A stretch of DNA of 42,844 bases, taken from the NCBI GenBank assembly GCA_030535605.1, contig JAUNRQ010000018.1:1-42844 (forward strand), given 5' to 3'. This document shows positions 3,010 through 14,987 of this stretch, in pieces. The DNA comes from Pseudoxanthomonas suwonensis (GTDB taxonomy: Bacteria; Pseudomonadota; Gammaproteobacteria; Xanthomonadales; Xanthomonadaceae). The notes below the pieces were generated by a model. That model was not told the DNA's origin. It did no database searches and saw only the letters and a program-made list of their open reading frames with translations. Within the stretch, counting starts at the first letter, position 1; each line of letters opens with the position of its first letter. The position numbers were made by a program, and so were the translations under genes.

Positions 3010-3531
3010 TCACTCCTGCGACGACAGATGCTCGCATCGCAGACGCGCGAACAGCCGCAGGTCATGCAACACGCCATCCTTGCACACGGCACGACGCATT
3101 CGTCCCTCCTCGACGAATCCGTTGTGTTCGAGCACGCGCACCGAAGCGTGGTTGAAGTCGAACACGCACGCCTGCAACCGATGCAGGGCGTGGGTATCCA
3201 TGGCCCACGGCGCGCAGACGCGGACGACCCGGGTCATGATGGCCCGTCCCCAGTGCGAGCGACCGAGCCAGTAGCCGAAATCGGTACCGACGGCGCGCTC
3301 GCCGGTGCCGGGTGTCAGGCCGATGCCGCCACTTGCCTCGCCATCGACTTCGATTGCCCAGGCATGCGCCAGCGGCATACCTCGCCCCGCAGGAACGCAT
3401 CCGCGTCGGCGTGCGTGTAGGGATGCGGAGAGCGATGGCTCAGGCCACGCTGGACCCCGGCATCATCGGCATGCCGCGGCATCGCCGAGACGCCAAGGAC
3501 GCACCAGTACTCCGGGAGCGACTTCCAGCAT
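3010..3531 (-). pseudogene. GNAT (RimJ/RimL-type) N-acetyltransferase, frameshifted
   Basis: A GNAT protein of about 173 residues can be read only by switching frame twice. Frame A starts at ATG 3531 (MLEVAPGVLVRPWRLGDAAA) and hits TGA at 3463-3465. A second frame then carries RHADDAGVQRGLSHR and PHPYTHADADAFLRGE. From about 3370 frame A resumes with HAWAIEVDGEASGGIGL, the Gly-rich acetyl-CoA segment (GTDFGYWLGRSHWGRAIMT) and the C-terminal ASVRVLEHNGFVEEG motif, ending at 3010. The two shifts compensate (near 3466-3476 and 3365-3372), so total length is normal. A 122-residue open frame from ATG 3378 lacks the N-terminal strand and helix of the fold. Sequencing error is possible, but two indels within about 110 bases suggest real decay. 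It would have acetylated an amine on a protein or small molecule. Confidence 0.7.
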
Positions 3532-11125: not shown

Positions 11126-11680
11126 TCAGGGATCGGCGCCGAGACCTGCCACGGTGTTCCGGATCAACGCGTCGACCGGCGCCAGCCGGCCGAGCATGCC
11201 GTTGGGCAGGCCCTGCATGCGCTCCATGGCGGCCGGTCCACGCCACAATACCCGGGTCGCGGCGTCCGGCTCTTCGCGCACCAGCACCCGCAGTGGCAGG
11301 TCCAGCGCCAGATCCGGATGCGCCTGCATCAACGGCGTTCCGGCAGCCGGATTGCCGTGGATGATGACGCGTGTCGGCGGCATGGCGAGCCCCGCCTCGG
11401 AGGCGGCCGCGGCATGGTCGATCACGCTGAACACGGTAATGCCCTTGTCGGTGAACGCGGCCACCAGCGCCTCGGTGGTACGCGCGACGTCGGCGCGACT
11501 GTCGAGCGTGTTCAGGGGCGCATTGCCGGCGGGAACGGACGCGACCATCGCGGCAGCGTTCGCGGCATCGGTCGCTGCATCAGTCGCCACGGATGTCGCA
11601 CCCGTGGCGGGCTCCGCCGCCGGGCCACAAGCGCTCAGCCCGATGACGCCGGACAAGGCGAGCACGACCAATCCGCGCAT
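11126..11680 (-). CDS. DUF302-domain lipoprotein
   Basis: 184 residues. The N-terminus [19 protein letters not shown] is a lipoprotein signal with lipobox LSAC. An Ala/Thr-rich linker follows (to about 55), then a DUF302 domain: TEALVAAFTDKGITVFSVIDH, PPTRVIIHGNPAAGTPLMQ and DLPLRVLVREEPDAATRVLW. DUF302 proteins are small alpha/beta proteins of unknown biochemical role. This one would sit in the outer or inner membrane facing the periplasm. Its ATG overlaps the pgk stop (TGATG), which suggests translational coupling to pgk. No functional link between a DUF302 lipoprotein and glycolysis is known to me. Confidence 0.8.
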   Translation of the reverse strand: MRGLVVLALSGVIGLSACGPAAEPATGATSVATDAATDAANAAAMVASVPAGNAPLNTLDSRADVARTTEALVAAFTDKGITVFSVIDHAAAASEAGLAMPPTRVIIHGNPAAGTPLMQAHPDLALDLPLRVLVREEPDAATRVLWRGPAAMERMQGLPNGMLGRLAPVDALIRNTVAGLGADP

Positions 11681-12852
11681 CAGCTGCGCGCCTGCAGGGC
11701 GGCCACAGCGGGCAGGGTCTTGCCTTCGAGGAACTCCAGGAATGCGCCGCCGCCGGTGGAGATGTAACCCACGTCCTCGGCGATGCCGTACTTGTCGACG
11801 GCCGCGAGAGTGTCGCCACCGCCGGCAATCGAGAACGCCGACGACGCGGCGATCGCCCGGGCCAGTGCCTCGGTGCCTTTGCCGAAGGCGTCGAATTCGA
11901 ACACCCCGACCGGCCCGTTCCACACCACCGTGCCGGCCTTGGCGATCAGGTCGGCATAGCGCCTGGCGGTTTCCGGGCCGATGTCGAGGATCATGTCCTC
12001 CGGACCCACGGCATCGACTGCCTTGACGGTGGCCGGGGCATCAGCAGCGAAGGCCGGTGCCACCACCACGTCCACGGGCACCGGAATTTCGGCGCCGCGG
12101 GTACGCGCATCGGCCATGATGGACCTGGCCGTGTCGATCAGGTCCATCTCCACCAGCGAACGGCCCACGGCGTGGCCTTCGGCGGCAATGAAGGTGTTGG
12201 CGATGCCACCGCCGACGATCAGCTGGTCGACCTTGCCGACGAGTGACGACAGAAGTTCCAGCTTGGTGCTGACCTTGCTGCCGGCGACGATCGCCAGCAA
12301 CGGCCGCGCCGGGTTGTCCAGCGCCTTGCCGAGGGCGTCCAGCTCCGCCATCAGCAGCGGCCCGCCGGCCGCCTGGGCCGCTTCGCGGATGACGCCGTGG
12401 GTGGAGGCCTGCGCCCGGTGCGCGGTGCCGAACGCATCCATGACGAACACGTCGCACAAGGCGGCGTATTGCCTTGCCAGCGCCACGTCATCCGCCTTCT
12501 CGCCCGTGTTCATGCGGCAGTTTTCCAGCAGCACCACCTGTCCGGGGGCAATGTCGACGCCATCCAGGTAATCGCGGACCAGCGGCACCTCGAACCCGAG
12601 CAGCTCCGACAGCCTTGCCGCGACCGGCGCCAGCGACTCGGATGCGCTCCACTGCCCTTCGGTGGGACGGCCGAGGTGCGACATCACCATCACCGCGGCA
12701 CCACCGGCGAGCGCCGCCTCGAGGGTCGGCAGCGAGGCCGTGATGCGCTGGTCGGAGGTGACTCGGCCATCGGCGATGGGCACGTTCAGGTCCTGGCGGA
12801 TCAACACCCGCTTGCCGGAAAGGTCGAGGTCGGTCATGCGGACGATGGACAT
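11680..12852 (-). CDS. pgk: phosphoglycerate kinase
   Basis: 390 residues, the normal bacterial length. It makes ATP and 3-phosphoglycerate from 1,3-bisphosphoglycerate. Landmarks are [54 protein letters not shown], the hinge [36 protein letters not shown] and the nucleotide loop [12 protein letters not shown] with [16 protein letters not shown]. The start [16 protein letters not shown] at 12852 has GGGAG eight bases upstream; the open frame reaches 12885 without support. Its stop overlaps the DUF302 gene. It lies 64 bases downstream of the haemoglobin pseudogene. Confidence 0.95.
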
Positions 12853-12916
12853 GCACAGGCTCCCAGTGGGGTGGATTCGGGTCAATCGTCTATTGTCCGC
12901 CCTCGCATCGGGCGCA

Positions 12917-13338
12917 TCAAACCGGCCGCGTTGGCGGGCGGCGACGTTTCACCGAACCGGGGACCGGGCGAGCCTGCTCCAGTCCCCGTCCGTAGCGCAG
13001 GCTCTGCGCGATCCGTTGGGCATGACCGCAGACCAGCCGCGCCTGCATGGCCATCGGGTTGCCTCGGTACTCGCGGGTACCCAGAACCACGGACGACCAG
13101 AACTTCACCAAGGTGCCTTGTGTTCCGGCCAATCCTCGACCCCCGGATTGAAGATCGGCCCGAGCAACGCATCGACCTGGACCCGGTCGTGGAACGCGTC
13201 CACCAGGCGCACCAGGTCGGCACGCGACAAACCGGCGGTGGGGCGGGCGGATTGCATGCCGACAGTGTCGCCGCGTTGGCGCGTGCCTGCCTTGACCGGG
13301 ATCATCGCAGCGCCGGCCGGCGGCGCGCGATCGTTCAC
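12917..13338 (-). pseudogene. group III truncated haemoglobin, frameshifted and internally deleted
   Basis: The 5' part, from GTG 13338, reads LVRLVDAFHDRVQVDALLGP, IFNPGVEDWPEHK, then stops (APW*). In the next frame the protein continues as TLVKFWSSVVLGTREYRGNPMAMQARL. One missing base near 13114 (restoring EHKATLVKFW) repairs the reading. After QARL the sequence jumps to HAQRIAQSLRYG, the last helix of these globins. About 35-40 residues (helix F and its surroundings, which normally carry the proximal histidine) are gone. Thus even a corrected frame would lack the haem ligand region. The GTG overlaps the BatD stop (GTGA), so it was the last gene of the Bat operon. Family assignment rests on the IFN...DW...FWSS...GNPMA order. 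Confidence 0.75.
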
Positions 13339-14987
13339 GGTGGATACAACGGCGGCAACAGGCCGGGGCGCGGCGCCGTGGGCGTCCGCCAGCGTGGGCC
13401 GTTGGCGAAGGCACCGCGCAGCGCCTGCAGTGCGACCGCGCCATCACCGCCATGCCAGCGCGCCTGTTGCAGCAGGCGCATCGCCTCTTGCTGGTGGGGG
13501 TCGTCGAGTCGGGCGATGATGTCGTCCAGTCCGGCGGTCTGCACGTCCGACAGCAGATGCAGGGCATGTTCGATGGCGGCAAGGTCCCCGGTGGCGAGCG
13601 CGGTGCGCAGCCGGGTCCGTGGCTCCGTCATTGACGGGATGTTCCCGCCGTCAAGATCACCCTGCTCGTGGCGGCGGCGGTACCACCAGATGCCGGCGAT
13701 GCCCAGCACGCCAGCCAAGGCCAGCAACCCGCCCACCCAGGGCTTCGGCCGACCCCCGAACGGGACGGCCGACTGCGATGTCGCGCCGGGCTGCTGCGCC
13801 GGGTCGAGCGGGTCCACCGGCGGCACCGCAGCGCCGCCTTCCACCTGAATCCGCAGATCCGGCACGGTGGCGGTGCGTGCCACGCCAGCGGCCACGTCCC
13901 ACCACGACAGGCGCGGGCCCGGTTGTCGCAGCGCGCCGCCCTGCTCCGGGAGCAAGGTGAAACGCCGGACCAGACGCAACTGCGGCCGGCCGTCGACGAA
14001 TCGTTCCTCGACCTGCGGCGGTTCCGGGAACACCTGCAACCCGTCCACGGGCGGCAAGGTCAGTTCCGGCATCTGCGCGGCCTGTGCGCCGTCGGCGACC
14101 AATTCCAGCACCGCATGCGCCGGTTGCCCTGCTTTCAGAGCGCCGTCCGGCGCTTCCAGCCACTGCAATTGCAGTCGGCGCAACGGCAACCACGGCTGCG
14201 GCGCGTCCGCGGGCGGCGGCTGCACCTGCAGGCGACGTGCCGCGCCTGCCGCCGCCAACGCGCGCCGGCCGTCGCCGAACCGCTGGTCGTACCACGCGCC
14301 CACGCCCTGTCCATCGAAGCGCGCGCCCGGAATCTCCAAGGTGCCGCTGCGATCGGGTACCAGCAGGAAGCGGCGCTCGACCACGGTGTAGCGCCGGCCA
14401 TCGATCTGGCGACTGTACTGGGCGTCATCGCCGACCCGGCGCAGGCTGGCGCCTTCCGGCGGATCCTGCTCCAGCGTGCCGGAGACCAGCGGCACCGCCG
14501 AGTACACGCGGACCACGTGCCCCACTGCCTGCTGCACCCACGGCTGCACGCTGTCGGTATGGCTTTCGACGAACACCTGGCCACGCGCCCGCACCGGCGT
14601 GGCCGCCGTCGCCGGCACGACCATCAGCGGCACCGGTGCGGTGCGGGCCGCGCCCACCGTCAGGGGGGGAATGGTCAACTGCCCTTCGCGGCGCGGCTGC
14701 AGCGCGACGGCAAACAGGGTGCGAGTGCGGCCACCACCCGCGGCGGGTTCGAAACTGCGCCGACTGCTTTGGCCACTGACCCGGAAATCGCGCTGCAACC
14801 CGGTGAAGTCCGGCATGGTCGCGCCGGGCTCGTCGGTCTCGATGTTCAGGGTGGTGGTTTCACCCAGCGCGATACGGTCCCGATCCAGCCAGGCCCGGGT
14901 CTGCGCCTGCACCGGCAGCATCGCGGTCGCCAGCAGTACCAGCAGCAACCCCGACCACCAGGCACTTCTCGCACGGCCGGCGCTCAT
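13335..14987 (-). CDS. BatD-family (aerotolerance-type) membrane protein
   Basis: 550 residues. A signal peptide (SGLLLVLLATAMLPVQAQ) precedes a long periplasmic region of beta-sandwich repeats typical of BatD: LDRDRIALGETTTLNIETDE, GLQRDFRVSGQSSRRSF, FFVESHTDS-like and LPEQGGALRQPGPRLSWWD segments. One transmembrane helix (about 425-445, VGGLLALAGVLGIAGIWWYR) is followed by a cytoplasmic helical tail. The family works with BatA/BatB VWA proteins and a MoxR ATPase in the envelope; its biochemical action is undefined. ATG 14987 overlaps the preceding stop (ATGA), and its own stop overlaps the GTG of the haemoglobin pseudogene. No symbol is given because naming varies among organisms. Confidence 0.85.
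   Translation of the reverse strand: MSAGRARSAWWSGLLLVLLATAMLPVQAQTRAWLDRDRIALGETTTLNIETDEPGATMPDFTGLQRDFRVSGQSSRRSFEPAAGGGRTRTLFAVALQPRREGQLTIPPLTVGAARTAPVPLMVVPATAATPVRARGQVFVESHTDSVQPWVQQAVGHVVRVYSAVPLVSGTLEQDPPEGASLRRVGDDAQYSRQIDGRRYTVVERRFLLVPDRSGTLEIPGARFDGQGVGAWYDQRFGDGRRALAAAGAARRLQVQPPPADAPQPWLPLRRLQLQWLEAPDGALKAGQPAHAVLELVADGAQAAQMPELTLPPVDGLQVFPEPPQVEERFVDGRPQLRLVRRFTLLPEQGGALRQPGPRLSWWDVAAGVARTATVPDLRIQVEGGAAVPPVDPLDPAQQPGATSQSAVPFGGRPKPWVGGLLALAGVLGIAGIWWYRRRHEQGDLDGGNIPSMTEPRTRLRTALATGDLAAIEHALHLLSDVQTAGLDDIIARLDDPHQQEAMRLLQQARWHGGDGAVALQALRGAFANGPRWRTPTAPRPGLLPPLYPP

Follow-up and report, generated by a model that had tools for sequence, protein, structure and literature searches.

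The globin-like feature that follows batD in the window, a 42,844-nt contig (JAUNRQ010000018.1) of a Pseudoxanthomonas suwonensis genome that was analyzed at its full length, is an ordinary pseudogene of a known family sitting at a derived rearrangement joint. We read it as the decayed copy of a group III (P) truncated hemoglobin that had its own promoter and was brought next to the Bat genes by rearrangement, an account that we hold, taken as a whole, with considerable confidence. On the minus strand the genes run in the order moxR, DUF58, DUF4381, batA (VWA), batB (VWA/TPR), batD, globin remnant, pgk, pyk and class I aldolase, with the names batA and batB assigned from domains and gene order (coordinates in Table 1). 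The source is a metagenome-type draft genome: 86 contigs that total 2.23 Mb, with a completeness of 81.6%. It is the sole member of its genus among the genomes compared, each of its bases rests on the assembly, and the surrounding family takes in Lysobacter and Luteimonas. For comparison, we built a profile (A1) from 14 intact globin relatives and searched it against the window and 149 family genomes. The 43 matches at E 4.3e-49 or better are referred to as strong orthologs, and weaker A1 matches were left out of the distance counts. Flanking genes were read in 80 named globin loci (L129–L208), the best 80 of 254; some come from related genomes, and one species contributes two contigs. The upstream flank reaches 5 kb or more in 72 of the 80 loci and is shorter in 8. 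The choice of probe affected what was retrieved: PF01152 alone under-counts group III globins (it missed the G129 globin that A1 finds), NCBIfam gave no match to two intact globin relatives, and BatD used as a seed retrieved none of the relatives' contigs, which the globin profile did.

Table 1. Features around the globin remnant, in window positions.
Feature	Position	Strand	Remarks
batD (PF13584)	13335..14987	-	Open to the PPLYP C-terminus found in most relatives
Likely rearrangement joint	13306..13334		29 nt between batD stop codon and box; putative position
FNR/ANR-type box ATGATCCCGGTCAA	13292..13305	-	Two mismatches to TTGAT-N4-ATCAA; begins 48 nt upstream of the ATG
-10-like hexamer GACACT	13264..13269	-	GATAAT or GACAAT in 8 of 10 aligned relative rows; putative role
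Most likely native start ATG	13255..13257	-	Fit to intact relatives and 48-nt box spacing
Globin remnant, piece 1	13111..13245	-	A1 profile positions 4-48, E 3.7e-14
Frame-break stretch	13111..13120	-	Pieces 1 and 2 overlap in profile, net one base short
Globin remnant, piece 2	13046..13120	-	Profile positions 46-70, E 2.0e-8; frame differs from piece 1
Junction of in-frame loss	13045..13046	-	Profile positions 71-99 gone (29 residues, 87 nt)
Globin remnant, piece 3 (C-terminal part)	12968..13045	-	Profile positions 100-125, E 0.0045; frame of piece 2
pgk (PF00162)	11680..12852	-	Usual downstream neighbor; pyk and class I aldolase gene (fba) follow

Profile A1 matches the window in three separate pieces within 13245–12968 on the minus strand, and the window genome is the only one of the 149 in which a single globin copy matches in separate pieces. 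Intact relatives match the group III family over its length in a single open frame, but the remnant matches only in the three stretches given in Table 1, and Pfam returned no match to the two pieces that we submitted. The frame shifts between 13120 and 13111 with a net shortage of one base, in agreement with an earlier sequence-only reading of this DNA that had placed a one-base deletion near 13114. The same reading had proposed an internal loss of some 35–40 residues; the loss is there and in frame, but it spans 29 profile positions. Its first residue is A1 H69 (profile position 71), which aligns to the proximal histidine of the Campylobacter jejuni globin Cj-trHbP/Ctb (2ig3) and which we take to be F8, and it also removes two invariant tryptophans (A1 W83 and W87). 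On the distal side, A1 Y20, presumably position B10, is Tyr in all 14 aligned relatives and His in the remnant, and A1 H43, aligned to the distal histidine (E7, as we assume), is retained in piece 1. With its frame, its proximal-His region and the distal-side Tyr all lost, the remnant should not, judging from its sequence, make a heme-binding globin. Its identification as a decayed group III truncated hemoglobin, already made in the sequence-only reading, is borne out by the three A1 pieces and by 2ig3, the solved structure that comes closest to the intact family: A1 matches it over profile positions 7–115 (E 4.6e-24). Intact relatives have the same residues as 2ig3 at the aligned distal (Tyr and His) and proximal (His) positions, and the window copy differs from 2ig3 in having neither the proximal-His region, nor the aligned Tyr, nor an intact frame.

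Could the living cell have an intact globin, with the lesions no more than errors of sequencing or assembly? The evidence comes from one draft assembly, and a frame break elsewhere in the same genome falls in an 11-C run, an error-prone kind of site. Against this, the lesions are of three kinds (a frame break, an 87-nt in-frame loss and a change of an invariant residue), the longest base run at the frame break is two, and both batD and pgk are without internal stops. We consider such errors improbable as an explanation, and the feature is best described as a pseudogene.

The intact state from which it decayed is seen elsewhere in the family. Each of the 43 strong orthologs from the 149 genomes is matched in a single frame, and the match covers 118 or more of the 136 profile positions; one stop was counted inside the match in two of them (G071 and G131), and in G071 the open part extends to profile position 124. 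Any A1 match occurs in only 71 of the 149 genomes, the window genome included, so absence of the globin is common in the family. The closest counterparts of the window locus are those of Lysobacter tolerans (L135), Luteimonas lumbrici (L148) and the metagenome-assembled genome SZAS-108 (L129), with an intact globin before pgk, and of Lysobacter pythonis (L139), with an intact globin 1.2 kb before pgk. All four share with the window the downstream pgk, the strand, the type of box and its 48-nt spacing, and differ from it in that the globin is open and no batD lies in the available flank. A pgk tree groups the window with G080 and Thermomonas beijingensis at weak support (87/84); in T. beijingensis an open globin sits with gapA on one side and pgk on the other, A1 finds no match in G080, and the loss of the globin in the window lineage may be recent. 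A second globin of any kind (the sequence-only reading had suggested looking for a truncated one) was not found in the window genome with PF01152, PF00042 or A1, and its absence is weak evidence because the genome is 81.6% complete. The genome does contain an nnrS gene.

The neighborhood of the remnant is not the native one: in many Lysobacteraceae its intact relatives occupy the interval from gapA to pgk. Among the family genomes, batD was found in 137 of 149 and pgk in all 149, and distances were tabulated from 146 of the 149 genomes for pgk and 137 for batD. A split BatD match was entered without its second piece, and G103, G041 and G007, whose pgk matches are partial, were left out for pgk. 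Both genes lie on one contig in 79 of the 146 genomes entered, the window genome included. In 77 of the 78 relatives with this arrangement batD is upstream of pgk on the same strand (the exception is G039), at a distance of 8.2–51 kb versus 486 bp in the window. Twenty of the 43 strong orthologs could not be placed relative to batD, which is on another contig; 20 of the remaining 23 sit between batD and pgk, 5.65–34 kb from batD, and three lie elsewhere (G082, G095 and G100). The contig also carries pgk for 29 of the 43, and eight of these 29 globins end within 140 nt of it. A downstream pgk on the globin's strand is no more than 200 nt away in 16 of the named loci (best 80 of 254) and no more than 6 kb away in 25. 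In the same set (best 80 of 254), 55 loci have gapA on the globin's strand no more than 5 kb upstream (51 of the 72 with enough flank), and none has it on the opposite strand. Sorted by genus, gapA is within reach in all nine Dyella loci, in 11 of the 16 Rhodanobacter loci and in none of the three Frateuria loci.

In the few intervals read between batD and pgk of relatives, we found dctA (our label for a dicarboxylate-symporter gene), tkt and gapA. In the window genome dctA-tkt has a Fur-family gene as its neighbor and lies inside another contig (C64); gapA is internal to a third (C11), near ribosomal-protein genes. Because these genes are on C64 and C11 here, we conclude that dctA, tkt and gapA moved and that batD was joined to the globin-pgk segment, and chromosomal rearrangement is the most likely reason why the remnant adjoins the Bat genes. 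Such a rearrangement would have removed dctA-tkt and gapA from their place near batD and pgk, and attached the promoter of the globin to the batD end, most likely within the 29 nt between the batD stop and the box, since BatD keeps its PPLYP end. The order of events is likewise an inference. A mis-assembled batD-globin joint, with the usual neighbors as the true ones, could occur in a draft of 86 contigs, but dctA-tkt and gapA are each inside a contig with other neighbors on both sides, so several separate misjoins would be needed; we give this explanation little weight relative to genuine rearrangement. Elsewhere in the window, a 122-residue GNAT acetyltransferase frame (3010–3378, minus strand) matches only positions 54–138 of the 138 of PF13302, and may be cut at its N-terminus or begin in another frame.

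The DNA upstream of the remnant suggests how the globin was expressed. The sequence-only reading had the globin start at a GTG overlapping the batD stop codon and took this as translational coupling to the Bat operon. The GTGA overlap does exist (13338–13335), but the fit to relatives places the native start most likely at the internal ATG (13257–13255) rather than at the GTG. In the alignment of the region (in which two genomes appear twice, from different sources, as rows L148/L065 and L135/L072), a conserved box and the -10-like hexamer just before the ATG are kept. Counted from where the box starts, its distance to the ATG is exactly 48 nt in the window, and the same spacing recurs in 9 of the 80 named loci (best 80 of 254), the nine including related genomes (L129–L131). 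Of 200,000 random 14-mers of the window's upstream composition, one scores as well as the window box. TTGAT-N4-ATCAA is described as the site of ANR and FNR in one report (PMC6110920). The window box, a predicted site for which the acting FNR-family protein is a candidate only, matches 8 of the 10 specified positions. The regulator DNR is also linked to this site.

To gauge how widespread the box is, we scanned the 150 nt before each start for TTGAY-N4-RTCAA with one mismatch allowed. Loci with pgk within 200 nt were positive in 7 of 16 cases (shuffled sequence, 0.28%), and the remaining loci in 14 of 64 (shuffled sequence, 0.50%). The nine of 16 loci with no box at this threshold include L132, a close relative of L129. 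Five of the other matches (L170, L174, L175, L179 and L183) are probably no promoters, as the same string in L063 precedes an in-frame stop and looks like the end of the upstream gene; thus 14 of 64 is too high as a count of promoters, since at least five of the 14 look like the coding end of the gene upstream. In eight of the nine loci with the 48-nt spacing the DNA from box to ATG can be read through in frame, which leaves a small chance of a short N-terminal extension. A peptide in place of a DNA signal between box and ATG is disfavored by the in-frame stop in the ninth locus (L133) and by the other spacings of the box, 89 nt (L142), 68 nt (L167, and L188 and L190 of one species) and 90 nt (L207), of which only that of L207 is in frame with the ATG. 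As the GTG at 13338 lies upstream of the box, the stretch between GTG and ATG is best read as a promoter. At class II promoters a box centered about 41 nt upstream sets the start of transcription, which for the globin would place it near the ATG, the box center being about 41 nt before it. The globin was probably transcribed from this FNR/ANR-type promoter, with an FNR-family protein as the presumed regulator. We identified a candidate in an open FNR-type gene of the same genome (C59:7623–8369, plus strand; L218:1124–1870), predicted from its best match, a solved FNR (E 1.6e-55). A second FNR-type regulator gene lies between hemN and nnrS (C59:15376–16041, minus strand; L218:8877–9542). Its frame is lost at an 11-C run inside the DNA-binding domain; the cause may be an error of sequencing, gene decay or a phase-variable, slippery tract.

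These observations leave the coupled-gene explanation, in which the globin closed the Bat operon, was coupled to it in translation and decayed in place, with a very slim chance. The GTGA overlap and a frame that is open from the GTG to the first lesion speak for it; the promoter-like box falls inside the supposed coding extension, the start of the relatives corresponds to the ATG at 13257, and in this genome the genes usually found between batD and pgk lie on other contigs. Furthermore, we rejected the coupling because no relative examined has a globin at batD: the nearest of the 23 strong orthologs with batD on the contig is 5.65 kb away, and batD is visible in only one of the named loci (L203, at 5.7 kb; best 80 of 254). 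A DNA search of 395 family genomes with positions 12600–13900 gave, among the matches listed, none from another genome that spans pgk through batD. The Bat genes themselves are open, in line with the intact operon of the sequence-only reading: batD, the two VWA genes and moxR. The window thus resembles known Bat/MoxR clusters in its gene content and differs in that the globin is no member. The link to Bat is accidental, and with the coupling unsupported, decay of the globin says nothing about Bat function. For comparison, deletion of all bat genes in Leptospira biflexa is reported to have given no oxidative phenotype (PMC3557215). Least credible of all is a shortened product that is still made and useful, such as a 50-residue peptide from the ATG at 13257, for although the box is retained and the frame is open from that ATG to the first stop, the peptide would have none of the heme-holding residues and not one of the 43 strong orthologs is of short form.

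The locus corrects a tempting operon story, since the adjacency and the GTGA overlap in one draft genome stem from a derived joint that placed a promoter inside an open frame. Mildly new is that the globin is found again and again downstream of gapA in Lysobacteraceae, Rhodanobacter and Dyella. A link between this globin and glycolysis was not found in our literature search, in which the gapA-related matches listed were off topic by title. In the intact relatives, the globin would ancestrally have had a role in O2 or NO handling, controlled by a regulator of the FNR family; one study (PMC4106858) reports a fast reaction of the Campylobacter group III globin with NO. A broader reading, which we offer as speculation and think rather unlikely to hold in full, is that the group III globin is a standing partner of gapA in these groups, partly under FNR/ANR-type control and possibly leaderless, and perhaps shields GAPDH from NO or O2 as oxygen falls. 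The window lineage would then have dismantled the module, with gapA moved, the globin lost and possibly the second FNR-type regulator, beside nnrS and hemN, broken. What deserves following up is the gapA-globin(-pgk) neighborhood, in which some loci carry an FNR/ANR-type box: it ties a globin type that is poorly understood, in a way open to testing, to glycolysis at low oxygen or in the presence of NO.
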